A stretch of DNA of 64,000 nt from Ekhidna lutea (GTDB lineage Bacteria; Bacteroidota; Bacteroidia; Cytophagales; Cyclobacteriaceae): assembly GCF_900188325.1 (NCBI RefSeq), contig NZ_FZPD01000005.1, positions 62,001 to 126,000 on the forward strand, given 5' to 3'. A program made the position numbers and the translations under genes. The notes beneath the pieces were generated by a model. That model did no database searches. It saw nothing but the letters and a program-made list of their open reading frames with translations, and was not told the DNA's origin. Positions 12,539 to 42,300 of the stretch are shown here, one piece after another. The number at the start of each line of letters is the position of its first letter. Position 1 is the stretch's first letter.

Positions 12539-15500
12539 ATGAAATTCTCAGCTTTCCTAAAAGTCACCATAATCACTTTTGGCCTTGTCATTCTTTCTTA
12601 TTCCGGACATTCGCAGGATTTTTCTGCCGGGATCAATGTGGATAAAACAGATATTAATCCAAATGCAGTATTACATCTAAAGTCAGGTGAAGATGGCAGG
12701 GCTCGTGGATTATTAATTCCTTCAATCAGCACATCGCAGCGGACCGGGATGAATCTTACAGCTGCAGACAATGGCTTATTGGTTTTTGATAGTGATGAAA
12801 ATGCTTTCTACTTCTGGGTAAATGGTACAGGCTGGATACTCACATCTAATACAGATGAACAGGATCTGGCCAATGTGCTGGGTCAAGGGAATAATGCAGG
12901 AGGCCTGGTCATTGAAAATGTGGGTGAACCTGTTAACCCTCAGGATGTGGCCACCAAAAATTATGTAGATAGCCAAACCACTCCTGATGAACAGGATTTG
13001 GAACTCTCCGGAAATACATTAACGCTGACAAATGATCCAACTTCAGTAGACCTGTCGCCTTATTTGGATAACACGGACAATCAAAACCTTTCTAGTGTAT
13101 TGGCTTCAGGCAATGACGCTGGAGCGATCACCATTACGAATTTACCTACTCCTGTCAATCCAGCAGATGTTGCAACGAAAGGGTATGTGGATAGTAATAT
13201 CGGTATTACTGATGTGACAAGTGCTGATATCCTGGATGGAGAAATTGCCAATGAAGACATCAATGCAGGAGCAAATATCGCATGGAGCAAGATTGATAAA
13301 ACGGGTGCTAATGTCAGTGATTTCACGAATGATTTAGGCTTCATTGATAATAATGTGAATCCTGCTACGGGTGATGTTTCAGGAAATTTTGCAACTGGTC
13401 TTTTTGTTGATTTGGTTGGCGGAACTACTGCAGGTGATGTGGCTACTGCTACAGGAATTGTTCTGGGGGCTACAGCTCTCGATACAGATGCGTCAGATGA
13501 TTTAACTACTGCCGACGTTGGTTTAGCACCAAATCAATTGATTTCACTTGATGGTTCGGGAATTTTACCAGCAGTGGATGGAAGTGCCTTGACTAATTTA
13601 TCTGCTTCTGCTATAAATACAGTAACCGCTCCTCTAGATGGTGATGTGTTAACATGGGATAATACCAATGGCCGGTGGGATGCCGGTCCTGGTGGATCAG
13701 GGTTAACACTTCCATTTTTCGCTTCGCAGGCTGATGCAGGTTATTTGTTTGATGTTTCGCAAACGGGCGCTGGTGGAGCTGGAAGTTTTTCAGTAATCAG
13801 CACAACAAATACCTCAGCAGCTTTAGACGTAAATACCAACGCAGATGCAGGGATTGGTCTGAGGGTAAATGCATTCGGAAATACAAGTAGCTCTGTTACG
13901 GGAGAGTTCAATGCAAGTGGTCCACAAGGGACTGCAGGTATTTTCCGAATAAACGATGGATCTAATCCATTTTCAGTAATCGAAGCTGTTACTGTTGGAA
14001 TGGGCGATGGGATTCTAATCGACCACTCAGGAACCAGCGGTAGCGGAATTTTCATAAACATGAGCAATGCTAGTGTTGATCCTGCGTTAGAAATTATTAA
14101 TTCAAACGGGCCGTCTATTGTAACTGATGGGGATCTAAATGTGGGAGGTGTGATTTTTGGAGATGGGAGTGGGATAACAAACTTGCCTGGATCAACTGAT
14201 TCTACAGCTATATACTCGAAGATGCAGTCAGATTCTATCCATTTTGAGGGAGAGCTCGGATTTTTGGATTTTGAGTTAGATACTGATTCTACTTTCTTAA
14301 GAGGACTGATCGATGGAAATACTTCATCAATTAGCGCACTAAACTCTGTAGATTCAGCGACTATTTACTCAAAGGTGCAGTCAGATTCGATATACTTTGA
14401 GGGCGAGCTGGATGCCGACTCACTCCATTTTGAATCAAAATTACTCGGCTTTGCAGATTCTACGGCCATCTTTTCTAAGGTCCAATTAGACTCGATATAC
14501 TTTGAGGGCGAGTTGGATGCCGACTCACTCCATTTTGAATCAAAGTTATTTGGCTTTGCAGATTCTACGGCCATCTTCTCTAAGGTCCAATTAGACTCGA
14601 TATACTTTGAGGGCGAGTTGGATGCCGACTCACTCCATTTTGAATCAAAGTTATTTGGCTTTGCAGATTCTACGGCCATCTTCTCCAAGGTCCAATTAGA
14701 CTCGATATACTTTGAGGGTGAGCTGGATGCCGACTCACTCCATTTTGAATCAAAGTTATTTGGTTTTGCAGATTCTACGGCCATCTTCTCTAAGGTCCAA
14801 TTAGACTCGATATACTTTGAGGGCGAACTGGATGCCGACTCACTCTATTTTGAATCAAAGTTATTTGGCTTTGCAGATTCTACGGCCATCTTCTCTAAGG
14901 TCCAATTAGACTCGATATACTTTGAGGGTGAATTAGACATTGATTCAGCATATTTTGAATCAAGACTGGTTGTCACTGAGCCCAATACATCATCAATTAT
15001 AGGAGGAAGTGGAGTTTCAGGAACTATTACCGGTATCAATAACTCCATATATGGGGTAGATGCAGGGGCAAGTTTAACCACCGGTCAAAACAACACATTT
15101 ATTGGTAGAGAAGCTGGGAACGGCTCAAATGCTTCCTCCAACACACTAGTTGGTTATCGTACCGGACTTACAACAACCGGGGGACAAAACGTTTTCGTAG
15201 GTTTTAATGCTGGTTCAGCAAATACGGGCGGTGCTAACAATGTTTTCATTGGGAGCCAGTCTGGACTTGGAAATAATACCGGAAACTTTAATGTTCTCAT
15301 TGGGCAAAATGCAGACGTTGGCGCTGCAGGTTTACAAAACGCCATAGCCATTGGCTATAATGCAACAGTTAATTTGAGTAACTCTCTCGTACTTGGTGGT
15401 ACGGGTGCTGATGCTGTCAATGTTGGAATTGGAACAACTACTCCATTGGTTAGTCTTGATGTAACTGCAACTGATGCTCTGAAACTTCCAGTAGGATTGG

Positions 15501-16474
15501 ATGGGCAAAGGCCATCATTTACAGCAGCTCAGATGAAAGGAATGATCCGTTTTAATGACACCCAAACTTTGTTCGAAGGTTATGATGGGTCAGCATGGAT
15601 AAAATTAGGTTTTGACTTGCCTTTTACGGCATCACTAGGCAATGCTGCTACACTCTTGGATATTGCCCAGACAGGTACAGGTGCCGCAGGGCGGTTTCAG
15701 GTAAATAATGGTACCAGTTCAGTGCCTGCGCTGGAGGCTTCTTCAAACGGAGCGCCTGGTTCTGTGGCTTTCAAAGCAGTGGGTAATGTTACAGCAAGTG
15801 CTGGTGAGTTTGTGGTGGATGGGTCAGCCACTGCACTTCAGGTAAACAACACTGCAACATCAACAGGAGCACTCGTGTCCTTCCAAAATATTAACGGTAC
15901 AAATACAAGCAACATCGTGGACATCAATACCATTGGTACGGGAAGTGCTTTAAACATTTCTCACAATGCTACCAATGGAAGTGGAATTCGAATAGATATG
16001 AACTCAAGCAGTGCCAACCCTGCTATAGAGATCGTAAATAGTGCAGGTGCTTCATTGACTACTGATGGCTTTGTTGGAATTGGTACATCTTCACCAGCCT
16101 CTACCCTCGATGTAAACGGTAACGCCAATATTCAAGTGGATTTGAATGTGACTGGTAATACAAGCATAGGAGGTGATTTTGTGAGCGCAGTAACAGGGCC
16201 GATTGCTGAAGGAGGAAATACAGCATCTAGAATTGTAACGCTTTCTCCAGGAGGAGCTATTGATAACCTAAATGGGGGCGTAGTTGGAAAAGAGGTGATT
16301 TTGATCGCCACAGCTGGAGCGGCAGTTACCATTCGACATAATACCGGTGCGCCAGCCACCAAAATCATGCTTAATGCTGCAATAGATTATGTAATGAATC
16401 CAAATAGCACACTACATCTTGTATATGTATCTAATACTATTGGATGGCTGGAAGTAGGAAGGGGAGCTCAATAA
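12539..16474 (+). CDS. Large secreted fibre-like protein with 35-aa tandem repeats and YadA-head-like motifs
   Basis: This 1311-residue protein has a signal peptide ending in YSGHS before QDFSAG. The N-terminal part contains two phage-tail-fibre-like modules ending in NPQDVATKNYVDS (about residue 131) and NPADVATKGYVDS (about 206). A central array (about residues 605-814) carries six 35-residue repeats with DSIYFEGELDADSLHFESKL as core. Around residues 853-957 follows a ladder of NTFIG, NVFVG, NVFIG, NVLIG and AIAIG motifs like the YadA/trimeric-autotransporter head or TMF-type fibres. Later segments (VGIGTSSPASTLDVNGN) are typical of Bacteroidota fibre proteins. No T9SS sorting domain or S74 chaperone domain is seen. 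It is followed after 3 bp by a T9SS type B protein, so it is probably a surface adhesin or fibre. Confidence 0.75.
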   Translation: MKFSAFLKVTIITFGLVILSYSGHSQDFSAGINVDKTDINPNAVLHLKSGEDGRARGLLIPSISTSQRTGMNLTAADNGLLVFDSDENAFYFWVNGTGWILTSNTDEQDLANVLGQGNNAGGLVIENVGEPVNPQDVATKNYVDSQTTPDEQDLELSGNTLTLTNDPTSVDLSPYLDNTDNQNLSSVLASGNDAGAITITNLPTPVNPADVATKGYVDSNIGITDVTSADILDGEIANEDINAGANIAWSKIDKTGANVSDFTNDLGFIDNNVNPATGDVSGNFATGLFVDLVGGTTAGDVATATGIVLGATALDTDASDDLTTADVGLAPNQLISLDGSGILPAVDGSALTNLSASAINTVTAPLDGDVLTWDNTNGRWDAGPGGSGLTLPFFASQADAGYLFDVSQTGAGGAGSFSVISTTNTSAALDVNTNADAGIGLRVNAFGNTSSSVTGEFNASGPQGTAGIFRINDGSNPFSVIEAVTVGMGDGILIDHSGTSGSGIFINMSNASVDPALEIINSNGPSIVTDGDLNVGGVIFGDGSGITNLPGSTDSTAIYSKMQSDSIHFEGELGFLDFELDTDSTFLRGLIDGNTSSISALNSVDSATIYSKVQSDSIYFEGELDADSLHFESKLLGFADSTAIFSKVQLDSIYFEGELDADSLHFESKLFGFADSTAIFSKVQLDSIYFEGELDADSLHFESKLFGFADSTAIFSKVQLDSIYFEGELDADSLHFESKLFGFADSTAIFSKVQLDSIYFEGELDADSLYFESKLFGFADSTAIFSKVQLDSIYFEGELDIDSAYFESRLVVTEPNTSSIIGGSGVSGTITGINNSIYGVDAGASLTTGQNNTFIGREAGNGSNASSNTLVGYRTGLTTTGGQNVFVGFNAGSANTGGANNVFIGSQSGLGNNTGNFNVLIGQNADVGAAGLQNAIAIGYNATVNLSNSLVLGGTGADAVNVGIGTTTPLVSLDVTATDALKLPVGLDGQRPSFTAAQMKGMIRFNDTQTLFEGYDGSAWIKLGFDLPFTASLGNAATLLDIAQTGTGAAGRFQVNNGTSSVPALEASSNGAPGSVAFKAVGNVTASAGEFVVDGSATALQVNNTATSTGALVSFQNINGTNTSNIVDINTIGTGSALNISHNATNGSGIRIDMNSSSANPAIEIVNSAGASLTTDGFVGIGTSSPASTLDVNGNANIQVDLNVTGNTSIGGDFVSAVTGPIAEGGNTASRIVTLSPGGAIDNLNGGVVGKEVILIATAGAAVTIRHNTGAPATKIMLNAAIDYVMNPNSTLHLVYVSNTIGWLEVGRGAQ
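14351..14980 (+). repeat. Tandem array of six 105-bp units inside the fibre gene
   Basis: Units begin at 14351, 14456, 14561, 14666, 14771 and 14876, each exactly 105 bp (35 codons). Units 2-5 are almost identical in DNA, differing by single synonymous changes such as GAGTTG/GAGCTG/GAACTG, while unit 1 and the end of unit 6 are diverged. A further degenerate partial unit precedes the array near 14200. The frame is kept throughout, so copy-number change would lengthen or shorten the protein without breaking it. Confidence 0.95.
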
Positions 16475-16477
16475 ACT

Positions 16478-17692
16478 GTGAATATGAGTAAGATAGCGTT
16501 TGTATTTATTGTTCTATTGAGTCATTTTGGTCACTCCCAATCCATCAATTTTGGAGACTCAACCACCTTGTTTGTAGGGGAAGGTACCAACTTCTTTTTT
16601 GGTGGGAGTACCACGCTAGGTGGTTCACTCGACAATGAAGGGACTTTGGATAGCTACGATAGCATCAACCTGGGCTCAAACACGTCCATTGGAAACATAA
16701 CATTTAGTGGAGTTGAAGATCAAGCGATATTTGGCACCACACTGATGGTAATTGATTTTGTTGTAGATAAGGATGATACTCTTTTTCTAAATACGAATGA
16801 AATTGAAGTTACAGGAGAACTAAGAGCAAATAACGGAATAATTAAAACACAAAAAGAGGATGATATTCTGGTTTCAGGATCCAGTCAGACGAACGGAGCA
16901 GGATATGTTCAAGGAAAGCTTTTTGGTAAATCTAAAGGCGGCCCTGTCACATTCCCAATGGGTGTGAATGGAGCACCGAATTATGTGACTATTTCAAATC
17001 TTCCAGATCAGACGGTGGTAAGTGTTGAGTGTAAGTTGCCTAATTCCAGCACATTAATCCGGGATCAAGATATTATTGGAATAAGTGACGATGTAGAGTG
17101 GATTATTTCTTCAGAAGATTCTGTTGAAATACAATTAACAATTGACTATTCGGGCATTGATTGGACGAGCCTTGTGGGCGATACAACCATTAACTCGGAT
17201 TTGTATTCACCGGCTATCGTTCTTTTTTCAAAAGATGACTCACTTTATCACGCATTAAATGGTACCATAATAGATGTAGATAGAGGATTTTTACCGCCAA
17301 CTGAAGAGAGTATAACAATCAATGAGTCTTTTTGGATCGGAAGCTCAGGTAGGAAATTAGCGCTCGCGTTTATCCCATTAATAAAGGAGCCGGAAAACTT
17401 TATTCCAACCGCATTTTCACCCGGCGCTACTATTGAAGATAATAAGGTGTTCAGAGCATTTTATTCTGGTGCCATCGTAACGGAAATATCCATCGCTGTG
17501 TACGACTCATTTAACAAACTAATATTCAGCGCGAATGATGGTGGTGATAACCTGGATTTATCCCAATACACCTGGGATGGAACATTAAAATCTGGTTTAG
17601 AAGCTCCTGAGGGCGTCTATTATTATAAGATTCGCATAGTGTCAGAAGCAGAGGTAATTAATAAAACTGGTGCAGTCCTCCTGGTAAAATGA
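16478..17692 (+). CDS. Secreted protein with T9SS type B (gliding-motility-associated) C-terminal domain
   Basis: This 404-residue protein has a signal peptide (IAFVFIVLLSHFGHS, cleavage before QSINFG), a central beta-rich region and a C-terminal domain of about 95 residues that fits the gliding motility-associated/type B sorting pattern: ENFIPTAFSPG, EISIAVYDSFNKLIF, WDGTLKSG, EAPEGVYYYKIRI and a final GAVLLVK. Such proteins are exported by T9SS and typically depend on a PorP/SprF-family protein, which is exactly the next gene (ATGA overlap). Start is GTG 16478 or ATG 16484; GGGGAG at 16461-16466 is better spaced for the GTG. The central region is not recognised. Confidence 0.8.
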   Translation: MNMSKIAFVFIVLLSHFGHSQSINFGDSTTLFVGEGTNFFFGGSTTLGGSLDNEGTLDSYDSINLGSNTSIGNITFSGVEDQAIFGTTLMVIDFVVDKDDTLFLNTNEIEVTGELRANNGIIKTQKEDDILVSGSSQTNGAGYVQGKLFGKSKGGPVTFPMGVNGAPNYVTISNLPDQTVVSVECKLPNSSTLIRDQDIIGISDDVEWIISSEDSVEIQLTIDYSGIDWTSLVGDTTINSDLYSPAIVLFSKDDSLYHALNGTIIDVDRGFLPPTEESITINESFWIGSSGRKLALAFIPLIKEPENFIPTAFSPGATIEDNKVFRAFYSGAIVTEISIAVYDSFNKLIFSANDGGDNLDLSQYTWDGTLKSGLEAPEGVYYYKIRIVSEAEVINKTGAVLLVK

Positions 17693-18729
17693 GAAGAAAT
17701 TACATAGTCATTGCGTTTCTTTTGATTGGCTCGTTTTCCTTTGGACAAGAGGGGCAGTTTTCTCAATATTTTGCAAGCTCTTCGATTTTAAATCCGGCCT
17801 TCACGGGGACTATTCCAAACCTTTCTTTTAATACGAACTATAAAAGAGGAGGAGATAAAAGTCAGGAATCTTTTCTTGAATTGATGCAAGTGACTTTCAC
17901 GTATCCTTTTAAGAAAACAACGAGTAAAGACTTTCAGACCGGGGGTGCAGGAATCACCTTCTTTCAGGAGAAAAGAGGATTTCAGGGTATATATAACTCC
18001 AAGAAGGTATTATTGACCGGAGCTTATGCCATGCGTTTAAGCCGATTGAAGAATGAATCCATCATCTTTGGCTTGCAGGGTGGAATAGTGGAACACCGAA
18101 TTGACGGATCAAGCTTAACATGGGGTTCCCAATGGAACAAGTACATTGGTCATGACAATGCCCTGACTGGGGAGGAAGTTGGCTCAAATCCAATCGTATA
18201 TCCCACATTCAATTTTGGCGTGATATATACGATCTATGACAATGAAAACAGGTATGTAAGAGACAGAAGTTTGATTGTTGGATTGAGCGCTGATAACCTA
18301 AACAGACCTAAAGTTTCATTTGATGGATTTGAAGGGGCGAGGAAAAGCCTATTGCTTAAAGGATTTGTATCATCAAAGCTACCATTAACTGCTAGATGGT
18401 ATATGCATCCTTCCGCTTATGTGCTTTACTCTCAGGGTAATACCCAGATAAATGGAGGGCTCTATGTCTCAACCTTCATCAATTCTGCAAAATCAAAGAC
18501 TGCCGTGCAGTTGCAGTTAGGCTCTTGGTATAGACTGGAAGACTCCATTATTGTATTGGCCGGATTCGAGATCGAAAACCTGAAGATTGGTTTTAGCTTT
18601 GATCTCAATACACAATCATTCGATATCAACCAGGAATTGGGCGGCAACCTTCCCACTTATGAAGTTTCGTTAACTTATAACCTGGACTTAACCAGTCCAC
18701 TCAGAAATATTTCAAGTCCTATATTCTGA
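17689..18729 (+). CDS. PorP/SprF-family type IX secretion membrane protein
   Basis: This 346-residue outer-membrane protein has a signal peptide (cleavage before QEGQFS) and then the family opening GQFSQYFASSSILNPAFTGT. The rest is amphipathic beta-strand pattern, consistent with the 14-strand barrel of the PorP/SprF family, which works with type B sorting-domain proteins such as SprB at the cell surface. It overlaps the type B protein gene by 4 bp (ATGA) and is followed 8 bp later by a PorE-like gene, so the three are one operon. I infer that it is a dedicated exporter or anchor partner for the upstream protein. Confidence 0.9.
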   Translation: MRRNYIVIAFLLIGSFSFGQEGQFSQYFASSSILNPAFTGTIPNLSFNTNYKRGGDKSQESFLELMQVTFTYPFKKTTSKDFQTGGAGITFFQEKRGFQGIYNSKKVLLTGAYAMRLSRLKNESIIFGLQGGIVEHRIDGSSLTWGSQWNKYIGHDNALTGEEVGSNPIVYPTFNFGVIYTIYDNENRYVRDRSLIVGLSADNLNRPKVSFDGFEGARKSLLLKGFVSSKLPLTARWYMHPSAYVLYSQGNTQINGGLYVSTFINSAKSKTAVQLQLGSWYRLEDSIIVLAGFEIENLKIGFSFDLNTQSFDINQELGGNLPTYEVSLTYNLDLTSPLRNISSPIF

Positions 18730-18737
18730 TTTTTAAA

Positions 18738-20792
18738 ATGAAGAAAGTACTCAACGTTTTGATCATGTTAATGAGCTTGTTTGCTTATGCCCAATCTGTG
18801 CCTAAACTACTCGGAATGGCTGATGAGCTGTATCAAAATGACCGGTACCTGGATGCGATCGAATTTTATGAGAAGGTTGTGGGCATGGACAAAACAAATC
18901 AGCAGGCGCGCTTTCGTCTGGCACAATGCTATAATAGAACACTACAGTATGATAAGGCTAAATCAACTTTTCTGAACCTGAGCAATACGCTCAATCATGA
19001 GTATCGCGCAAGATCGCTTTATAGCTACGCTAATCTGCTAAAGCAGGAGAGCAGGTTCGAAGAGGCTGATTCCATTTACTTTTTTCTGATTTCTGTTCCT
19101 GATGCCGAGCCGTATCTGGTTGAGCTGTCCAGAAAGCAGCGTGAAGGATGTCAGCTTGCCTTACGTCAAGAAAAAGCCGATAGAGGATTCTCAATTTCGT
19201 TTATGGAGGATATCAACTCCGACTTTCATGATTTTGGTGCGGTGCTAAATCCGTCCAGCGATCATTTGGTTTTGGCCACAACCAGAAATCTCCCCGGCGT
19301 TCAGTATGAAGGAAGCCAATACGAAGGACTTCTTCCGGATTTGGCTTCTTTTGAACGTAGAAATAACAATCGATGGCGAATGTCATCATCTGAGCAGCGA
19401 TTTTCCGATCTCAACACGCAATGGGCAGAGGGATCGGGATCATTCACAGGGGATGGACGTACATTTTACTTCTCTTCATGCAGGGGTGAATCAGGTGCAG
19501 ACTGTGGCATCATGGTAAGCTACCTGGAAGGTGAAAACTGGAGTGAGCCTGTACTACTGAATGACTATATCAACGAGCCTAACTCTGAGAATAAGCATCC
19601 GTCAATTTCAGTTACAGGTGATACCTTGTTTTTCGTTTCAAATCGTATCGGAGGGAATGGGGGTAGCGATATTTGGATGAGTCTAAAGGGATTGGAAAAA
19701 GAATCGTGGACCCCAGCGATAAACATGGGAGCGGTAATCAATTCTCCTGAAAATGAAATCACTCCATACTATTCGTCCGCTTATGAATGCTTATTGTTCG
19801 CAAGTGATGGGCATGTTGGGTATGGCGGTTTTGACCTCTATGCTGCAAAAGGTGAATCATTTTTTGAACCTGAAATTTATAATCTTGGCGATCCATTCAA
19901 CTCTACATGGGACGACACTTATTTTGCTATTTCTGATACGGTAGGCTTCCTTTCTTCCAATAGAGTAGATCATGAATTGCTTAACATATACAGTTTCTCT
20001 GTAAATAATGAAAAGCTCTTTTTGTCCTTGTTGATTTCAGGAGAATCACTCATAGATTCAAGGCTGGTGTCTAAGTTCAGAGACATACAATCTCTCGATT
20101 TGGTCACTTTTAGGGTAGAGGATTATGCAGGTTATGACCTCTTTGAGCCAATAAGACCTTCAAAGCCAAAACCGAAGATATTGGAGGATGTCGTATCAGG
20201 TGAATTAGGTGAAATTAAGTTTGAGCATCTATATTTTGATTACGCATCTGCAACCTTACGTCCAGAGTCTCAGGTAGCGTTGCAGGAATTAGGACTCCAG
20301 TTAGGAGATAGATCATTTGAGTCAATAGATATTCTTGCTTATACTGACAGTATTGGTTCAGACTCTGCGAATCTCTTGTTGAGTAACAATCGCGGAAATT
20401 CCGCAAAAGATTTCCTGGTTTCATTAGGAATTGATTCTAGTCGGATCAATGTACTTCCACGTGGTGAAATACCTTCTAAGGATAGTGATCATTGGTATAA
20501 ACGCATTCTTAAACGCCGTGTAGAAGTTATTATCAAATCAAGCGAATCAATTGATTTACCATTAGCCAAAACATATATCCTAAGACAAAGTATGTCACTT
20601 CAGGAGTTGGCTGGTAAGATTGGAGTTGATTTTAACGAATTGAAAAAATGGAATGGTAATCAGGAAGGAAAACTAGCTGCCGGCAGTACCATTCGTCTGG
20701 TTGAATCAGGAGATGCTGAAAGACCAATTAAATTATTAGTTGATGAAACGGATTTAAGCTTGTTCGAAAAACAAGCGAAAGACCAAGGCTAA
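18738..20792 (+). CDS. PorE-like TPR / PD40 beta-propeller / OmpA protein with C-terminal LysM-like domain
   Basis: This 684-residue periplasm/outer-membrane protein has a signal peptide (cleavage near YAQS), TPR repeats at about residues 25-130, WD40-like PD40 propeller repeats at about 150-430 (FYFSSCRGESGADCG, LFFVSNRIGGNGGSDIW, LLFASDGHVGYGGFDLY), an OmpA peptidoglycan-binding domain at about 494-602 (LYFDYASATLRPES, NNRGNSAKDFL, RRVEVII) and a LysM-like segment at about 613-660 (SLQELAGKIGVDFNELKKWN). TPR-propeller-OmpA order matches PorE, the T9SS component that ties the machine to peptidoglycan. The added LysM-like domain would be a second cell-wall contact. Its 3' end overlaps the convergent CHAT gene by 4 bp. 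Confidence 0.85.
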   Translation: MKKVLNVLIMLMSLFAYAQSVPKLLGMADELYQNDRYLDAIEFYEKVVGMDKTNQQARFRLAQCYNRTLQYDKAKSTFLNLSNTLNHEYRARSLYSYANLLKQESRFEEADSIYFFLISVPDAEPYLVELSRKQREGCQLALRQEKADRGFSISFMEDINSDFHDFGAVLNPSSDHLVLATTRNLPGVQYEGSQYEGLLPDLASFERRNNNRWRMSSSEQRFSDLNTQWAEGSGSFTGDGRTFYFSSCRGESGADCGIMVSYLEGENWSEPVLLNDYINEPNSENKHPSISVTGDTLFFVSNRIGGNGGSDIWMSLKGLEKESWTPAINMGAVINSPENEITPYYSSAYECLLFASDGHVGYGGFDLYAAKGESFFEPEIYNLGDPFNSTWDDTYFAISDTVGFLSSNRVDHELLNIYSFSVNNEKLFLSLLISGESLIDSRLVSKFRDIQSLDLVTFRVEDYAGYDLFEPIRPSKPKPKILEDVVSGELGEIKFEHLYFDYASATLRPESQVALQELGLQLGDRSFESIDILAYTDSIGSDSANLLLSNNRGNSAKDFLVSLGIDSSRINVLPRGEIPSKDSDHWYKRILKRRVEVIIKSSESIDLPLAKTYILRQSMSLQELAGKIGVDFNELKKWNGNQEGKLAAGSTIRLVESGDAERPIKLLVDETDLSLFEKQAKDQG

Positions 20793-23683
20793 CCCTTTGA
20801 GACTAGTATATAAGCTCCCCAGTTATACGGATTCTTATCCACTTTTCTGAATTGAGCTCGGGCATTAAAAAATGCCTGTTGTGGATCACTTTCTTCCAGA
20901 AGCGCTTTATAGAATAAATTCATAAAATTCCTAGCTGCCTGGTCATTGATCTTTACTAGAGAAAGCAAAACGTTTTGAGCACCGGCAACAAGAAATGCTC
21001 TTTGTAAACCAAAGACTCCCTCGCCATTTTGCACTTTTCCGAGACCTGTCTCACATGCCGCTAATACCACAAGATTTGTTTGATCAAGTACCAGGTTCAT
21101 AGCTTCATATGCCGAAAGCAAGCCATCATTCTCGCTACCATCTCCACGACTTAAAAACAAGCCCGAGCTATGTAAGGGATCAGCGTGATTTGGATCATCA
21201 ATAAAATATCCGTGCGTAGCTATGTGAATGATTCCGGGATTCGAGAAACTTTTGATCTGATCTTCTGTGGCGTCTTTAAAATAGAAGGTTTCAGTCTTCC
21301 ATCGCCTTACATTTAGGATTTCGGTAATGTCGTTGGCTTCTCGTTCAGCTCCTGGCAGCTGCTTCATGGTAAAACCCTCAATCTTAGAAAAATCTGGATT
21401 ACCAAAGATTTTAGCTTCCCTTAACAGATTGGTGGGCTCCCTGTATAGCAGATCCTTTCCACTTGTGATGTTGATAATGTCATACTTATCTGACATATAG
21501 GTATCGGCAACAGCATCATAGAATACCACAGGGTTCAGTTTGTGGTAAATTCCGTCTGGAGACAAGTAAATCTTATTCACGTCTGACAAAGTACTATCTA
21601 TAGGTTGCCAGAAAATCTGATAGCTATTCTTATCCTTTACACCGTATTTTAGTGCATTTCTGTAAGTGGCAAAACCTTTAGTGAAGTCCATAGCTGCCAG
21701 CTTTACAGGTTTCAGCACACTGTCTTTCTTAACGACAAACGCCACATAATGAGATTCATCCTCAAAAGCCTGATCTATTCGCTCATCTATTACATCAACC
21801 TTATAATCACGATATTGGATGATATCTACCATTGCTGTGCTATCTTCTAAGGCATTACTAATCTCAGCCCAATGGTGATAGGTTGTTTTTTCCTGATCGG
21901 CAAAAACTTTGAATTTTCTGGATAGGTCTTTTTCAAGAGCAGCACACTCCTCTTCCAATTCGGTAATGGATATGCCTTTCTTTCTTCGATCTTCTTCTGT
22001 CAACAAATAGGCCTGTGCCAAGCTGTATTTTTTCTCCCGCCAGGTATTGTAATCTCTTTTTATTTTGTTGTCGTCACTGTTTTGGATAAGCTTTCTCATT
22101 TTCTCAGAAGCATAAAAAAGGATACCCCTGGTGTTTAAGAAGTGATTTAAGGCGTTTTCAGCGTATGGTCCGGATATGTTTTCATCCTTAAATGCAAGAG
22201 AACAAAACCGCTCAATATTGTAGCGGGTTTCGTCGAAATAAAGCTTGCGCTGATTATCTGTAAGTACAGGAAAAATATCCTGCATGTGTTTGATCTCGGC
22301 ATCAAGTGCATGGTCAAACGATTCCATTGCAGATTGGTAATCCTTAACAATCATATAGTACAGTCCGAGATCGTTGACAGTCTTGATGTATAGTGGATGA
22401 TAATTTCCTAGTGTATTTGCGCGTATTCTCTTTGCATCCTGGAGTAGTTTTCCGGCCAGAGAGTAGTTGCCGAATTGGAGATACAATAAGGCTACATTGT
22501 TAAGAGAAGTGGCATAGTTCGCATGCTCGGTTCCGTATATCACTTTATCCATGTCTAGCACTTTCATATACAAATCCAGTGCTTTCGGTAGCTCGCCTTT
22601 TTCTTTATAAATGCTTGCAAGATTATTCAGACTACTGGCATAGTCTGGGTTCATAGACCCAAACAGTTCAAGAAAACCTTCTGCACTTTCTTTAAAGCAT
22701 TCTTCGGCTTTCTCGATGTTTCCCTGGCGCATGTAGATGGTACCAAGGTTATTGATCATATATGGGCGCACGTTGCGGATATCACCGGCTGTGTTGATTG
22801 CCCGATCAATGTATTCGTTTGCCGTCTTCAGGTCATTCAAACGATAATAGAGAACACTTAAACCATTGAGTGTTTCCAGCATCATGATTTGGTTATCCTG
22901 GTAGCCACTGGTTTTCTTTTCCAGGTTATGGAGTAGGTAATTTTCAGAGTCTGAATATTCACCCTGTTCTATTTTTAGTGCTGATAGTCTGTCGATCGCC
23001 CGGAAGTATTGAATCTCATCTTTTCCTTTGGCCATTTCTACTGCTCGTAGCAGCTCAGATTCACTTTTTTGGAGGTCTCCAAAGTGTCGGTATGTCGTTC
23101 CTAATTCTATCTGTAGAGCAATAGTAACAGAATCTTTATACCCTCTTCCAATGGTTAAAGCTTGATTAAGCGCATCCAGACTTTCCTGGAAATTACCTAC
23201 TTCTCGGTGATAGACACCATTACGATAAAGAAAACGGATCCTGGCATCTCTGTTGCCGCCGTATGCTGCTTCTGTTACCCTTCCCGCAAGGTTTAAATAA
23301 TCTCCTGCCTCATCAAACCGACCCAACTCCTGATAGAGGGCAGATAGGTTGTAGTACAGACCTAAAAGATCTGCATGTATGGAGTCTTTCTGCTGAACCT
23401 CCTGTTGAATTCCGCTTTTAAATGCATTGAGACTTTTCTGCTTATCGTTTACTTCCCACAGGATCAGGCCAACATTATTATACATTCCGGCAATCCCAAT
23501 TTCAGTCACACAATTAGCAGAATCCAGGTCTGTGAGCAAGGAATTTGCGTAGAATTTAGCCTTTAATGGGTAGTTGTATTTAAAGTAGTTGGCACTGTCA
23601 AGTTTTTGAAGACAAGACTGTCCAAAAAGGATGGCACCAAGAAGGGAAAATGTAATAGCTAGTCCTAAACGCATAAACAACAA
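20789..23683 (-). CDS. Secreted TPR-CHAT (caspase-like) protein
   Basis: This 964-residue protein has an N-terminal signal peptide (LGLAITFSLLGAILFG, cleavage before QSCLQ), about a dozen TPR units at roughly residues 40-460 (for example ASSLNNLASIYKEKGELPKAL), a helical linker, and a CHAT peptidase domain at about 650-964. The caspase-type dyad is visible: His824 in HIATHGYF and Cys877 in VLAACETGLG. The predicted location is the periplasm or cell surface. CHAT proteases can be executioners in defence systems or housekeeping regulators; the signal peptide argues against a cytoplasmic gasdermin- or CRISPR-type role. It is convergent with the PorE-like gene, overlapping by 4 bp. Confidence 0.9.
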   Translation of the reverse strand: MLFMRLGLAITFSLLGAILFGQSCLQKLDSANYFKYNYPLKAKFYANSLLTDLDSANCVTEIGIAGMYNNVGLILWEVNDKQKSLNAFKSGIQQEVQQKDSIHADLLGLYYNLSALYQELGRFDEAGDYLNLAGRVTEAAYGGNRDARIRFLYRNGVYHREVGNFQESLDALNQALTIGRGYKDSVTIALQIELGTTYRHFGDLQKSESELLRAVEMAKGKDEIQYFRAIDRLSALKIEQGEYSDSENYLLHNLEKKTSGYQDNQIMMLETLNGLSVLYYRLNDLKTANEYIDRAINTAGDIRNVRPYMINNLGTIYMRQGNIEKAEECFKESAEGFLELFGSMNPDYASSLNNLASIYKEKGELPKALDLYMKVLDMDKVIYGTEHANYATSLNNVALLYLQFGNYSLAGKLLQDAKRIRANTLGNYHPLYIKTVNDLGLYYMIVKDYQSAMESFDHALDAEIKHMQDIFPVLTDNQRKLYFDETRYNIERFCSLAFKDENISGPYAENALNHFLNTRGILFYASEKMRKLIQNSDDNKIKRDYNTWREKKYSLAQAYLLTEEDRRKKGISITELEEECAALEKDLSRKFKVFADQEKTTYHHWAEISNALEDSTAMVDIIQYRDYKVDVIDERIDQAFEDESHYVAFVVKKDSVLKPVKLAAMDFTKGFATYRNALKYGVKDKNSYQIFWQPIDSTLSDVNKIYLSPDGIYHKLNPVVFYDAVADTYMSDKYDIINITSGKDLLYREPTNLLREAKIFGNPDFSKIEGFTMKQLPGAEREANDITEILNVRRWKTETFYFKDATEDQIKSFSNPGIIHIATHGYFIDDPNHADPLHSSGLFLSRGDGSENDGLLSAYEAMNLVLDQTNLVVLAACETGLGKVQNGEGVFGLQRAFLVAGAQNVLLSLVKINDQAARNFMNLFYKALLEESDPQQAFFNARAQFRKVDKNPYNWGAYILVSKG

Positions 23684-24437: not shown

Positions 24438-25337
24438 ATGTCCATCGTAGTAGATAATCTTACAAAAGTTTACGGTTCCCAAAAAGCACTAGATAGTATT
24501 TCATTTGAAGCTTCTGAGGGGAGAATCACCGGTTTTTTAGGCCCAAATGGAGCGGGTAAATCCACCACAATGAAAATTGCTACAGGGTTTATTGGATTAA
24601 CCTCAGGTTCTGTTTCTGTAAATGGGATTGACGTTACAAAAGAACCACTTCAGGTAAAACGTATAACCGGGTACTTGCCCGAGCATAACCCACTCTACCT
24701 GGAAATGTATGTAAAAGAATACCTTGGATTTATTGCCTCTTCTTATGGCTTGAAGGATAAAAAAAATCGAGTAGAATCAATGATTGAGATGTGTGGGTTG
24801 GGGCAGGAGCAACATAAGAAGATTGGTGCACTTTCAAAAGGTTTTCGTCAGCGAGTGGGGCTTGCTCAGGCGCTCATCCATGATCCAAAAGTGCTGATTC
24901 TGGATGAACCTACAAGTGGATTAGATCCCAACCAGCTCGTAGAGATTCGAAAGGTTATCAAAGAGGCAAGCAAGGATAAGACTGTCATTCTTTCAACGCA
25001 TATCATGCAGGAAGTGGAAGCACTCTGCGACAAGGTGGTGATAGTCAATAAAGGTAAGATTGTGGCAGACGATGAGGTCGGGAATTTAAAGGCTATGAAG
25101 TCAGATCAAATCAGCTATCAGGTTGAATTTGAAGAGGGTATAGATCAGAAGCTGTTCGAAAAGGAAGGGTTAACGATTACCAATTTGGAGAATTTTGTAT
25201 ATCAGATTTCTGCTGATGAAGACCCAAGGAAAGTCATCATGAAGGTAACAGGAGATCATGCATTGCCTTTGATTAATATTTCGAAGGTGGAACAATCTCT
25301 TGAAGGTGTATTTCAGGAATTAACAAAAGGGGCATGA
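24438..25337 (+). CDS. gldA: Gliding motility-type ABC transporter ATP-binding protein
   Basis: This 299-residue ABC ATPase has Walker A GPNGAGKST (residues 35-43), signature region LSKGFRQRVGLAQ, Walker B VLILDEP and the H-loop in STHIMQE. A roughly 80-residue C-terminal extension follows the nucleotide domain. It is the first gene of gldA-gldF-gldG and overlaps gldF by 4 bp. In Flavobacterium johnsoniae GldA, GldF and GldG form an ABC transporter needed for gliding, though Cytophagales homologues are also found in non-gliders. The symbol is given because the sequence and the three-gene order agree. Confidence 0.9.
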   Translation: MSIVVDNLTKVYGSQKALDSISFEASEGRITGFLGPNGAGKSTTMKIATGFIGLTSGSVSVNGIDVTKEPLQVKRITGYLPEHNPLYLEMYVKEYLGFIASSYGLKDKKNRVESMIEMCGLGQEQHKKIGALSKGFRQRVGLAQALIHDPKVLILDEPTSGLDPNQLVEIRKVIKEASKDKTVILSTHIMQEVEALCDKVVIVNKGKIVADDEVGNLKAMKSDQISYQVEFEEGIDQKLFEKEGLTITNLENFVYQISADEDPRKVIMKVTGDHALPLINISKVEQSLEGVFQELTKGA

Positions 25338-26062
25338 TCACAATCCTAAAAAAAGAAATAAACGAATTTCTAGATTCACTCATTGCCTATGTAGCGATCG
25401 GAATTTTCCTTACGGGAATAGGGCTTTTGATGTGGGTCTTCCCTGATACGAATGTATTGGACTATGGGTATGCGAGCATGGAAACGCTCTTTTCGTTGGC
25501 ACCCTATGTTTTTATGTTTTTGATTCCTGCCATTACCATGAAAGCATTCGCGGAAGAGAAAAGAAGCGGCACAATAGAGCTGCTTTACACCCTCCCTTTT
25601 CGGGACATTGAAATCGTAATAGGAAAGTTTCTGGCAGGGTTTCTACTGGTTGTTTTCTCGGTGCTGCCAACTCTGATCTACTACTTTTCGCTTTCCTATT
25701 TGGGAAATCCGGTTGGCAACATTGACACAGCAGGGATTACGGGCTCTTACATTGGGCTGATCCTGCTCGGAGGCATTTTTACTGCTATTGGTATTCTATC
25801 ATCTGCTCTTACAGGGAATCAGATTGTTTCATTCATTTTGGCGGCCTTCTTATGTTTTGCTTTCTATGCAGGCTTTGATTCCATTGCTTCTATAAATGTC
25901 TGGTTAGAGACCTCTTTTATCATCGAACAAATTGGCATTCTCTCACATTATGAGACGCTCAGTAAGGGTCTCATAGATTTAAGCGATGTGATTTATTTTT
26001 TAAGCATGATCGTGCTGTTTTTGTACTTAACTAAAATCATCTTAAATGTGCAAAAGGGATGA
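25334..26062 (+). CDS. gldF: Gliding motility-type ABC transporter permease
   Basis: This 242-residue membrane protein has six predicted helices in the ABC-2 permease style. Visible features are an N-terminal MITILKKEINEFLDSLIAY and the cytoplasmic loop AFAEEKRSGTIELLYTLPF, followed by IVIGKFLAGFLLV, typical of ABC-2 permeases fed by a GldA-like ATPase. The ATG overlaps the gldA stop (ATGA) and its own stop overlaps gldG, indicating tight co-translation. The transported substrate is not known for the family. Confidence 0.9.
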   Translation: MITILKKEINEFLDSLIAYVAIGIFLTGIGLLMWVFPDTNVLDYGYASMETLFSLAPYVFMFLIPAITMKAFAEEKRSGTIELLYTLPFRDIEIVIGKFLAGFLLVVFSVLPTLIYYFSLSYLGNPVGNIDTAGITGSYIGLILLGGIFTAIGILSSALTGNQIVSFILAAFLCFAFYAGFDSIASINVWLETSFIIEQIGILSHYETLSKGLIDLSDVIYFLSMIVLFLYLTKIILNVQKG

Positions 26063-27735
26063 GTGAAGGAAAGAGAATAGTACTTCTTCAAACGATAGTA
26101 ATTGTCCTATCTGTTTGGTTAATAAACCAACTGGCTGACCGGTATCGTGTACAGTTTGACCTGACTGAAGAAAAGAGATACACCATTTCTGATGCCACAA
26201 AAAGACTTTTACAATCTTTGGATGAAGAGGTTTATTTTGAGGTTTATCTGGATGGTGATTTACCTTCCAATTTTGAACGATTTCAAAAATCGATTGGTGA
26301 GATGCTGGATCAGTTTGCAGTAGAAAGCAACAATCGAGTTCAGTATAAATTCACTGACCCGGCTCAGGCTACAAATCTGCAGGCGCGAAATCAATTCTAT
26401 CAATCACTGATTGATAAGGGCGTACAGGTGACCAACCTAAATTACAAGAATGCAGACGGTGACAAAATGGAAAAGCTCATTTTCCCCGGAGCATTGGTGT
26501 CAAAGGGAATACGGGAAGTTCCTGCTAATCTTCTCAAAGGAAATAGTGCTGCCGGGCCTGAGGGTATGTTGAATCAAAGCATTGAAGGATTGGAATATGA
26601 GCTGGCCACAGCAATAACACAGCTAATAGATGGAGGTACTAAAAAGATCGCTTATATCACTGGACATGGCTCTCCGGACTCCTTAGATATCGCAGGGTTT
26701 AGAAGGACAGTACTTTCCAAATTTGATTTGTTTAATGTTTCCTTGGCCGGTAGAAATGAGCTGAGTGGATATGATGCTGTTATTATTGGTAAGCCAACAC
26801 AACCATTTACAGAAAAGGAAAAATACCTTGTAGATCAGTACCTGATGCGTGGAGGTAATTTGATCTTTTTCATTGACGCATTAAGTGTGAATATGGACAG
26901 TGCTTCTGGCGAAGGCACAGTGGCTATTCCGTATGAGACCAACCTTACCGACCAACTGTTTAGATACGGCGTTCGAGTCAACCAAAACTATGTGCTGGAT
27001 GTGAACAGCGGGCAGTTTCCTGTAGTAGCGGGAAACATGGGTAATCAGCCGCAAATTCAAATGATCCCATGGCCGTTCTTCCCAGTATTGACCAACTTCA
27101 GTAAGCACCCTTCAGTCAGAAACCTCGATGCGATACTTGGACGGTTCGTTTCTGAAATAGACACAGTAAAAGCTGAAGGGATCAGTAAAACACCATTAAT
27201 CAACACCAGTCAGTATACAAAGCTTTTGGGCCCTCCTGTTCGTGTAGCTTTCAATGATTTGCGAGATGAACTTAGGCCGGAAAAATTCACTGATGGGCCA
27301 AAGACTGTAGGCTATTTGCTGGAAGGAAGCTTTACTTCTTTGTATGCAAACAGACTTGTTCCAAAAGGAATGAACAAAGGTTCCTTTATTGAGCGAGGTG
27401 AACCTGGAAAGGTAATCGTAATAGGAGATGGAGATATTATCAGAAATGATCTGGATCCGGAGACAGGTGAGCCACTGGGACTTGGAGTGGAGCCATTCAC
27501 AAAGACCACATATGCCAATGAAGAATTTATTTTGAATATTCTTGATTACATGGTGGATGAATCTGGATTGATAGAGACACGTTCCAGAGAAGTGAAAATA
27601 AGACCCTTGGATCGGGTCAAAGTAACAGAACAGCGCACAAAATGGCAGCTGATTAATTTAGTTGTTCCTGTGATTTTAATCTTGATTATTGGTGTGGCAA
27701 AGTGGTATATGAGAAAGCAGAAATATTCTAAGTAA
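26059..27735 (+). CDS. gldG: Gliding motility-type ABC transporter substrate-binding-like protein
   Basis: This 558-residue protein has an N-terminal membrane helix (about 8-25), then a large periplasmic region, and a C-terminal membrane helix (WQLINLVVPVILILIIGVA, about 530-550). The segments YRVQFDLTEEKRYTISDAT and KKIAYITGHGSPDSLD are characteristic of GldG and the related ABC_transp_aux family. It overlaps gldF by 4 bp and shares one nucleotide with the next gene, so all four genes are translationally linked. It is probably the extracytoplasmic component of the GldAFG transporter. Confidence 0.9.
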   Translation: MSEGKRIVLLQTIVIVLSVWLINQLADRYRVQFDLTEEKRYTISDATKRLLQSLDEEVYFEVYLDGDLPSNFERFQKSIGEMLDQFAVESNNRVQYKFTDPAQATNLQARNQFYQSLIDKGVQVTNLNYKNADGDKMEKLIFPGALVSKGIREVPANLLKGNSAAGPEGMLNQSIEGLEYELATAITQLIDGGTKKIAYITGHGSPDSLDIAGFRRTVLSKFDLFNVSLAGRNELSGYDAVIIGKPTQPFTEKEKYLVDQYLMRGGNLIFFIDALSVNMDSASGEGTVAIPYETNLTDQLFRYGVRVNQNYVLDVNSGQFPVVAGNMGNQPQIQMIPWPFFPVLTNFSKHPSVRNLDAILGRFVSEIDTVKAEGISKTPLINTSQYTKLLGPPVRVAFNDLRDELRPEKFTDGPKTVGYLLEGSFTSLYANRLVPKGMNKGSFIERGEPGKVIVIGDGDIIRNDLDPETGEPLGLGVEPFTKTTYANEEFILNILDYMVDESGLIETRSREVKIRPLDRVKVTEQRTKWQLINLVVPVILILIIGVAKWYMRKQKYSK

Positions 27736-39352: not shown

Positions 39353-42300
39353 ATGCGTACCCATTTAGCCATATTTATTCTTACATTATTTATCTCATCT
39401 TCATTGGCCTATTCTCAAGGTCCAGGGGGGGTAAGGGATAATTCCACCAATCTTTTCTGGCTTAGAGGAGATGTTGGTTTATTCGAATCAGGCGGATTGG
39501 TTAGCTTATGGGAAGATCAGGCTGCATCCAATAACGCTAGCCCTCCTTCCACTCAAGAACCGGCATTCACTGATCCGGCAATCAATGGTATTGAGGGAGT
39601 TACTTTTTCTTCCGGAAAGGAGCTGACGATTGCCAATTCAGGGAGCATCAATACTTCCAACTTTTCTACCAGAACAATTTTTCTTGTTTTCACAACCCCA
39701 TCTACTTTTTCCGGAAGCCAGGTTCTTTATGAGCAGGGAAATAGTTCTGATGGTTTAATTATTTATTTAGATGGGTCTGGACAGCTGAATGCCGGGGTTT
39801 ACAACTCTACAAATGACTATTTTATTACGTCCGGAGTACTCACTACAAGCACTGATTATATAATGGCATTCACTTTTGATGGTGGAGTTACGACTATTGA
39901 GGCATTCATTGATAATACTTCTTTAGGTACGAATACTTCAACATTAGCTTCTGTTACAGGAACAACAGGTGACATAACATTCGGAGATAGCGGAGATGGA
40001 AATCAAATTAGTGGGGGTTCAACAATCACGAATGGAGGTGCAGGGTTTACCGGAACAATTACCGAAGCGATATATTATAATGTTGCTTTAAATGACGCGG
40101 AAATCACAATTATCAACAATTATTTAGGTGAAAAGTACGGAATCACCCTTACATCCAATGACGAGTACGCTCAGGCTGGATACGAAAACGAACTTGTTGG
40201 AATTGGTAGGCAAACCGCTGGTAATACAGACACTTCCATTTCAGGTTCCGGAGGTGAAATTTATTTTGATGAAAGTGGTGGAACCCTGGACTCAGATGAT
40301 GAATGGGTTTTTACCGGACATAATGGAACGAGTCATGGCACTACTAAAAGCGATGTAGATGCAGGCCTTACAGGCTTTAGCAGGTGGGCAAGAGTTTGGT
40401 ATTTAGAGAAAACAGGAACAGTAGATATAACACTTTCATTCGATACGGATGAAGCTGGTTTTGGCCCTGCAGATGATATTGGCACAACTGGAGATTTTAA
40501 GCTCCTTTATTCTACAGACCCTTCGTCAGTTGATTTCACTGAAGCTTCAGGCACTCCTGCAGCATCATTTACTGATGGCAATAATAAAGTGACTTTTACT
40601 GTCACTGATGCTAACCTAGCAGATGGGTATTATACACTGGGGGTAACCGAAATAGTCAATTTCTATTCATATAAATCTGGTGATTGGGATGATCCTCTCA
40701 ACTGGACCACTGATCCGTCCGGATCAATTCGTGTGAACCCTGACAGCCGGTACCCGAATCAAACCACCGATAATGTCACGATACTTAATGGTGATGAAAT
40801 AGATATTGATGCTGATGCAGTTACATCAAATGGCGGATCCTATACGATAGGAGATGTTATTATCAACGCAGGTGGGATTTTAGATATTGAAGGAACTTCC
40901 GGTCATACTTTTGAGAATTTTTCTGGGAAGGGTACACTTGTAATGGAGGGTGATAACTTTCCAAGTATAAACACTACCAATAATTTCGTCTCTACTTCAG
41001 GAGGAACCGTGCAATTATCTGGCTCCTCTGATTATACGTTCAATGCAGCAGGAAAAGCAACATTTAATAACCTTGATATTGCAGTCACCAGTGCTACAGT
41101 AACTTTGATGGATAGCCTAATCTTAAATGGTAACCTGGAATTAAGCAGCGGTACTTTTCGCATAAACGATGATTCGGGAACCGATTTAATCAGACTCGAA
41201 GTGGCCGGCGATGTAACTGTAAGTAGCGGCGCTTCATTCACCGTTGGTTTGGGTGATGCATCCAACGATCGAACTGGGGAAACCAATGTACGAGGCGTAT
41301 TTGATTTTCACCAAATTGATCTGAAAGGAGATTTCACAAATGAAGGTACCATCACTTTCACAAACATAAATGCCACTAGTGTTACAAATGAAGAGTTTTA
41401 TGAAGCATATCCTACCGCTGGTGACCAGGATAATGATAATGGAGCAGGACCTTTAGATGCAACCGAGTATGGGGTAGTTGAACTTCTCATGACCAATGAT
41501 TCTGAAAATCAAGACATTACCTGTAATGGTGCTTGTACGTTTTATAGAATAGAGATTGATAAAGGGACTGATGATACATACATCTGTGAGATCAATGCAA
41601 ATTCACAAGCTAATTTTAATTTATACGGAAGGGTAGCCTTTCAGCAGCATTTTGGAACTGATGAGACACTCTATGAGAATCCCAGAGCACTCGGATTAGA
41701 AAAAGGCACACTCAAACTAGGTGACAATATTAACCTTCCGGAAATCTGTCGAAATGATCCTAGTACTTATGGCGGAAATTCAGCAAGAGTTTGTACAGGT
41801 AGCTGCAACAGTGATTATGTCATTTTCCCAGATGCCAGATTTTGGGTGGCTGGAACTTCTGTGGTCAACTCAGAGGATCAAAATGGCTTTCATGTGATGG
41901 GTAAATTGAAAGTCAGTGATAATGGAGAAATTTCCAAAACAGGAGACGGGAAATGTCAAATTATTTTCGATGATAATGCGGTTGTAGAAATTACTGGTGG
42001 AACAGTTACTGTGAATCAGGTAAGAACAAAAAGTAATGGTATTGATCCTCAGGGTGCCTGGATTCACACAGGCGGAACTGTTACCGTTAATTCACTATCG
42101 ACAAATGCAGGAACGAATGGTGATCATGCATTATTTAGTATGCCATTCAGTACAATGAACTTCACCATGACAGAGGAGGATCCATCAAATCCGACCATTC
42201 TAAATATAGAAATGGAAGATCAGGGTGATAATGACAGGCCAAAGCAGACCAGCGGTGAAGATGTGTTGATTCAAATTGGAATTGAAGAAGGCAATTACAT

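Follow-up and report, generated by a model that had tools for sequence, protein, structure and literature searches.

Why does a gene for a tail-fibre-like protein without any secretion tag stand at the head of a run of type IX secretion system (T9SS) genes, and does it belong to that run? The question is raised by Ekhidna lutea (assembly GCF_900188325.1, contig NZ_FZPD01000005.1, positions 62,001-126,000 of the forward strand; these 64,000 nt are hereafter called the window), in which four co-directional, tightly packed open reading frames (ORFs) occupy positions 12539-20792 of the plus strand. They encode the fibre, a short T9SS cargo that we call the adaptor, an outer-membrane carrier of the PorP/SprF family and a PorE-like anchor. 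An earlier, sequence-only reading had proposed these ORFs as one operon, and the ORF list bore out its coordinates and strand. In the window's clade, the genes are part of a real and conserved five-gene module, whose fifth member is a convergent gene encoding a TPR-CHAT protein; the fibre-adaptor-PorP part is a wider module in Bacteroidota. The best explanation, to which we give an even chance, is a T9SS-linked surface fibre made of two polypeptides, in which a trimeric fibre is docked on a T9SS-exported adaptor and held by PorP and PorE.

Linkage of the fibre gene to its neighbours

Homologues of the window PorP were found in 34 of 98 relatives (E <= 1e-20). Gene neighbourhoods were compared at 40 loci among relatives and at 80 loci from named genomes (best 80 of 475), and the order fibre, adaptor, PorP, PorE-like recurred across both sets. 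An adaptor was present in 18 of the 80 named loci, which included records of Imperialibacter, Reichenbachiella, Marinoscillum, Ekhidna, Flammeovirgaceae and Cyclobacteriaceae, and in 17 of these 18 the upstream gene carried the fibre domain; in the exception, L098, the adaptor is truncated by a contig end.

A census of 50 distinct adaptors placed a fibre-type gene directly upstream of 45. At L162 and L166 the fibre comes after PorE instead, and at L060 the upstream ORF is a 159-aa contig-edge fragment. Leaving out the 17 loci from which the fibre profile was built, the fibre was directly upstream in 28 of 33 adaptors. A fibre lay beside PorP in 41 of 44 cases with an adaptor nearby versus 1 of 82 without (L144). 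PorP itself stood beside the adaptor in 47 of 50 loci, a linkage that is partly by design, because most loci were fetched around PorP. In 51 of 57 pairs, the fibre and adaptor genes were at most 40 bp apart or overlapped by at most 60 bp. At the genome level, a strong adaptor was found in 17 of 59 relatives, a strong match to the conserved N-terminal base domain of the fibre (fibN) in 16 and both in 16 (Fisher p 1.5e-13, with thresholds chosen after the lists were viewed); one genome had the adaptor only (G018, with fibN just under threshold) and none had fibN only. Two congeners (G008 and G009) gave no match for the PorP orthologue, the adaptor, fibN or CHAT, yet have SprA, so the cassette looks accessory. 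As the sequence-only reading supposed, the fibre belongs with cargo, carrier and anchor in one operon-like unit, and this unit is conserved in relatives; absence of the fibre beside the other three, which that reading had named as a refutation, was not the pattern found.

The wider spread was surveyed starting from the adaptor, which makes for a less biased test. A whole-adaptor profile run over the phylum was swamped by generic matches to the C-terminal sorting domain (CTD; 72 of 296 genomes), and a profile of the adaptor N-domain (adN) was used next; only adaptor-sized open frames were followed, because this profile also hits segments of numerous very long proteins. In regions chosen on adN, a fibre was directly upstream in 12 of 18 and within three genes in 14 of 18, against a background of 12 of 876 ORFs. 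For the subset chosen with no fibre row in view, the counts were 8 and 10 of 13. The four misses were L180 and L185, whose upstream ORF is cut by a contig end, L187, itself cut, and L188, with its fibre on the other strand. Some of these loci belong to other orders of the class (L181-L184 and L186) and one to another class (L195). The full order fibre, adaptor, PorP, PorE-like was seen in L181, L182, L184 and L186; in L181 and L186 a further gene separates fibre from adaptor.

These counts bear on the simplest alternative, a phage-derived fibre gene lying beside the cassette by chance. Fibre modules do resemble phage proteins, and the three-gene part stands alone in published operons, as described in the available text of the report (PMC12618676). 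Against a mere passenger stand the linkage itself (45 of 50 adaptors versus 1 of 82 adaptor-less PorP genes), the recurrence of the fibre-adaptor pair in further orders of the class, a fibre base that finds no match in phage records (see below), and an export-type N-terminus in nearly all fibres, by a crude test. We consider it highly improbable, and a passenger or prophage fibre was rejected on the linkage census and the unmatched base.

A fifth gene

The sequence-only reading drew the boundary of the unit too narrowly, since in the window's clade a convergent gene, overlapping the PorE-like gene by 4 bp, belongs to it. Its product contains TPR repeats and a CHAT domain (PF12770, 181.7 bits, cut-off 24). 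A relative of it occurred at most four genes downstream in 27 of the 50 adaptor loci. Of the PorP genes, 26 of 44 with an adaptor had such a relative nearby, versus 0 of 82 without. In G016 the CHAT relative is placed elsewhere in the genome. A second version of the cassette, seen at 9 of 50 loci, has an opposite-strand PorE-like gene after CHAT, converging on fibre-adaptor-PorP; in L051, this PorE-like protein has 1355 aa, with OmpA and two LysM domains. At L079, L080 and L082, a second PorE-like gene (643 aa) lies 3' of the CHAT gene.

CHAT is the most conserved cassette member. Among 27 CHAT proteins compared, His824 was kept in 27 and Cys877 in 25, a pair that we take to be catalytic. In L055 and L056, both of the second version, Pro replaces Cys877, so these two proteins may be inactive. 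The TPR-CHAT protein is probably periplasmic, and its linkage, together with the retained pair, suggests that it could process or monitor the fibre complex.

Fibre and adaptor as a proposed pair

Beyond its conserved base of about 79 aa, the sequences of the fibres diverge. The label tail fibre for the window protein stands on a modest PHROGs match (tail spike protein, 29 bits, E 7.3e-7); such weak PHROGs matches fall on parts of the fibre other than its base. The companion label, YadA-head-like, was not confirmed for the window fibre, for which a Pfam search gave nothing up to E 0.1, and applies to a relative in L040 (YadA_head, 50.9 bits, cut-off 25). Related cassettes can carry different tips, and the tip and shaft modules of relatives also include Peptidase_S74 in L051 (57 bits), and collagen repeats with Phage_depo_C in L063 (29.9 bits, cut-off 25). 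The same Pfam search gave no YadA C-terminal membrane anchor in the window fibre, and a YadA-type autotransporter was rejected for want of an anchor. T9SS sorting families (NCBIfam) were absent from all nine fibres scanned, the window fibre included, which agrees with the earlier claim of an untagged fibre.

The window fibre has a hydrophobic, Sec signal-like N-terminus, and an export-type N-terminus was found in 61 of 62 intact fibres, by a crude test that 747 of 1167 other ORFs also pass. The predicted structure of the base has a mean pLDDT of 69, and its quality is good at the core alone, where residues 41-80 reach about 90. Its structural matches were weak throughout (Z up to 4.6), but 16 of the first 19 rows were entries for phage fibres or tailspikes or trimerisation domains of collagen XV/XVIII, which fits a trimer. 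We infer that the fibre is exported by Sec and trimeric. No tblastn match at E <= 0.01 was obtained for the 105-aa base region in 50,697 phage records. A search of Protein Data Bank (PDB) sequences with the fibre returned one chain at E 0.46, and with the fibN profile an unrelated protein at best (E 0.046).

The adaptor had been read as a type B cargo. We term it type B-like, because the window sequence misses the curated type B cut-offs; relatives in L182 and L184 exceed the cut-off (43.3 and 47.7). The predicted fold of residues 302-404, in a model built from 46 sequences (mean pLDDT 91.1), does resemble solved T9SS CTDs. The first Foldseek row was PorU (E 5.9e-5), and Z scores were 7.8 against chain D of the NucA-bound T9SS complex (root mean square deviation 2.3, 74 residues aligned), 7.6 against PorU and 7.2 against PorZ. 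Unrelated immunoglobulin-like domains reached 9.8; since such domains score equal or higher, the likeness supports a CTD at the level of the fold only. These structural rows cover mainly residues 302-404 and barely sample the N-part. The adaptor profile found nothing better than E 0.33 among PDB sequences. The 3-bp gap reported between fibre and cargo holds if GTG 16478 is the start, and becomes 9 bp if the in-frame ATG 16484 is used; the 4-bp overlap of cargo and PorP was correct. Shorter adaptors, of about 350-380 aa, occur in L189, L190, L192, L193 and L194, where the C-terminus is a poor match to type B (19.3 bits in L189) and the next gene is of the PorP family with a long basic tail; in L189, L192 and L194 the gene 3' of the adaptor is assigned to PorP/SprF.

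Does the fibre follow the adaptor or the carrier in its divergence? Over 32 cassettes, the distance correlation of fibN with adN beyond PorP was 0.375 (p 0.0005), versus 0.097 (p 0.17) for fibN with PorP beyond the adaptor. As a positive control, CTD and PorP gave 0.70; contact between these two is known for other type B cargo, according to the available part of PMC9143113. When one close relative of the window group was kept, the fibN-adN value was 0.468 (n=24). This is a hint, and a lead, that the fibre base may pair with the adaptor N-domain. Identity between the window and L039 declines from inside to outside, with 84% for CHAT, 76% for PorP, 71% for the PorE-like protein, 66% for the fibre base, 48% for the adaptor and 36% for the shaft.

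Several observations weigh against a fibre that is paired with a T9SS-exported adaptor in a fixed unit. In the 20 loci left without L16x-L19x, the pairing signal was lost, fibN-adN falling to 0.106 (p 0.14) and fibN-PorP rising to 0.387 (p 0.001). The window adaptor scored 17.1 with TIGR04131 (cut-off 35) and 24 with CHU_C (cut-off 27). Foldseek found no structure for the base model at E <= 0.001. There is no fibre at L168 and L169 (559 and 546 aa) in the census, and at L188 the fibre is on the opposite strand only. On coordinates alone, a fibN match was directly upstream of only 17 of 33 adaptors, several of the remaining 16 being at contig ends or having their fibre elsewhere. Finally, CHAT is absent from 23 of 50 fibre cassettes.

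Could the fibre instead remain periplasmic, serving the adaptor, PorP and PorE as scaffold or chaperone? The export-type N-termini come with no outer-membrane signal, and the PorE-like anchor and CHAT are likely periplasmic too, as such a role would have it. Fast-changing shafts and swapped tips better suit an exposed part, and open frames of up to 6484 aa would fit the periplasm poorly. The longest frame lies upstream of L052 (G005:C1:1775469) and ends about at the second cassette's adaptor; that it is too long to stand in the periplasm is our estimate from the lengths of phage fibres. We give this periplasmic role little chance. Two further loci have unusual fibres. In L172 (G068:C1:2096000-2115900), large fibre proteins containing several copies of fibN and ending in S74 are encoded one after another, and the stretch examined contains no adaptor. 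In L083 the fibre region is divided between an ORF of 807 aa, which has the base, and one of 780 aa, which has the tip, through either a split gene or a frameshift.

Proposed export and anchoring, and known relatives of the cassette

The carrier was identified as stated by the sequence-only reading, with 147.7 bits for TIGR03519 (cut-off 90.55) and 108.5 for PF11751 (cut-off 22.3); it had no match among PDB sequences. The anchor is PorE-like in its domains, all above cut-off (TPR_19 33.7, PD40 36.5, OmpA 43 bits), and falls short of the curated NCBIfam PorE model (215.9 bits, cut-off 600); no lipobox Cys was seen at the end of its signal region. Of the 13 PorP genes in the window genome, three belong to fibre cassettes; the genome also has one SprA above cut-off.

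The cargo-PorP-PorE part of what the sequence-only reading saw as a candidate for an undescribed apparatus is already published. In the available text of two reports (PMC9143113, PMC12618676), P. gingivalis has a complex of PorE, PorP and PG1035, and five operons of F. johnsoniae combine PorE-like, type B and SprF-like genes, for which a static role is proposed. These share with the window a type B-like cargo, PorP/SprF and PorE-like genes in one run; here, in contrast, a separate gene for an untagged fibre stands ahead of the cargo, with TPR-CHAT at the other end in this clade. The portions at hand of these reports and of PMC12635249 make no mention of an untagged tail-fibre partner or of CHAT. 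Literature searches, in a collection with no preprints and few subscription articles, brought up no description that seemed related among the papers listed, which does not show that none is in print.

In the two-polypeptide explanation, the fibre gene would yield a phage-tailspike-like protein exported by the Sec route as a trimer, whose conserved base would dock on the adaptor N-domain. The adaptor CTD would take the adaptor through SprA and onto its own PorP, a step published for other type B cargo. The PorE-like protein would tie PorP to peptidoglycan, so that the fibre would stay in place instead of travelling on a gliding track, with the fast-varying shaft and tip facing outward to bind a surface or a partner. 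In the window's clade, the probably periplasmic TPR-CHAT protein may process or monitor the complex. Altogether, this suggests variable tail-fibre-like adhesins mounted on a cell-wall-anchored base.

The least certain step is the crossing of the outer membrane by the fibre together with the adaptor; export through the tagged neighbour, which the sequence-only reading had put forward as one possibility, stays an inference. To our knowledge, known T9SS cargo each carry their own CTD. A more daring proposal, which we advance tentatively, is that the T9SS exports a pre-folded, untagged trimeric fibre as a hitch-hiker on the short CTD-bearing adaptor, a single tag thereby sufficing for a separate adhesin that is free to vary, with a clade-specific periplasmic, caspase-like TPR-CHAT protease licensing, trimming or sensing the assembled fibre. 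Conversely, the fibre could surface by another route and then bind the PorP-held adaptor from outside, the T9SS never handling it. None of the nine scanned fibres has a T9SS signal, and the own-CTD rule is consistent with the available parts of PMC9143113 and PMC12618676; both points favour capture from outside. No other outer-membrane exporter recurs in the profiled cassettes, in which no systematic search for one was made, and we regard such capture as unlikely.

It could also be that the cassette feeds the gliding machinery, as SprB-SprF does. The genes gldA, gldF and gldG begin 755 bp past the CHAT gene, and SprB-SprF is the best known type B case, its SprF Cys-X-Cys tail connecting the gliding adhesin to GldK in the available text of PMC12635249. 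Cassette PorPs have no Cys in their last 45 residues, a weak objection, as the 41 PorPs examined that lack it include non-cassette ones. Among eight further PorPs of the window genome, one Cys close to the end is found in those of L004, L005 and L007. The linked PorE-like gene also speaks against movement, being associated with static complexes in what is available of PMC9143113 and PMC12618676. A moving adhesin seems quite improbable, and a gliding adhesin was not favoured in view of the Cys-less PorP tail; a static anchor is the better, weakly supported guess. The likeness to SprB-SprF (PMC12635249, in its available part) is that a type B cargo has an SprF-like carrier of its own; the differences are an adhesive part on a separate polypeptide, a carrier tail without Cys and a linked PorE-like gene.

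With phage tailspikes and tail fibres, the fibres share a conserved N-terminal base, a variable shaft and, in relatives, S74 or Phage_depo_C-type ends, and differ in their export-type N-terminus, chromosomal T9SS neighbours and a base unmatched in phage records. Ata/TpgA is a trimeric autotransporter adhesin with an OmpA-like partner, and the TpgA model gave a weak match in the NCBIfam scan. The likeness lies in the way of working, a trimeric fibre teamed with an OmpA-like protein that binds peptidoglycan; here no YadA-type membrane anchor was found, and a PorP carrier and a separate adaptor are present. If the two-polypeptide explanation is true, an adhesive part without its own CTD, in a conserved two-gene arrangement, would be a new way of using the T9SS. 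It would also explain some tail-fibre-like genes on Bacteroidota chromosomes, and the linked CHAT gene would tie caspase-like proteins to the assembly or surveillance of a surface appendage.

Table 1. Features of the fibre cassette, in window coordinates.
Feature	Position	Strand	Remarks
Fibre gene, 1311 aa	12539..16474	+	Sec signal-like N-terminus; no sorting domain found; no Pfam match
fibN, conserved N-terminal base domain of the fibre	12617..12853	+	alignment A4 (13 fibres); model core 41-80
Tandem repeat in fibre shaft	14368..14928	+	unit 105 bp, 5.3 copies, 95% matches
CTF, C-terminal 100 aa of the fibre	16172..16471	+	tip module common to several related fibres; window sequence itself among those used to build the alignment
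Adaptor, short type B-like cargo, 404 aa	16478..17692	+	GTG start (alternative ATG 16484); model pLDDT 91.1
adN, adaptor N-domain	16535..17359	+	alignment A5, 22 sequences
Adaptor C-terminal sorting domain, residues 302-404	17381..17689	+	under sequence cut-offs; fold match to T9SS CTDs
PorP/SprF family outer-membrane carrier, 346 aa	17689..18729	+	TIGR03519 147.7 bits
PorE-like protein, 684 aa	18738..20792	+	TPR, PD40, OmpA; LysM weak, under cut-off
OmpA domain of PorE-like protein, residues 499-577	20232..20468	+	43 bits, cut-off 27.2
TPR-CHAT protein, 964 aa, convergent	20789..23683	-	signal-peptide-like N-terminus; CHAT 181.7 bits; linkage census
CHAT domain with His824 and Cys877	20801..21622	-	

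A promoter and terminator scan was uninformative (31 promoter-like sites versus 21.0 expected, standard deviation 4.8). The gldA, gldF and gldG genes mentioned above (24438-27735, plus strand), for a gliding-associated ABC transporter, all score above NCBIfam cut-offs and lie beyond a reductase-like gene as well. Further along the plus strand, 39353-48598 and 48890-57496 encode two giant proteins, one of 3081 aa and the other of 2868 aa, whose T9SS type A sorting domains score above cut-off, and the 3081-aa protein also weakly matches the adN profile (G000:C11:109171, E 2.8e-15).

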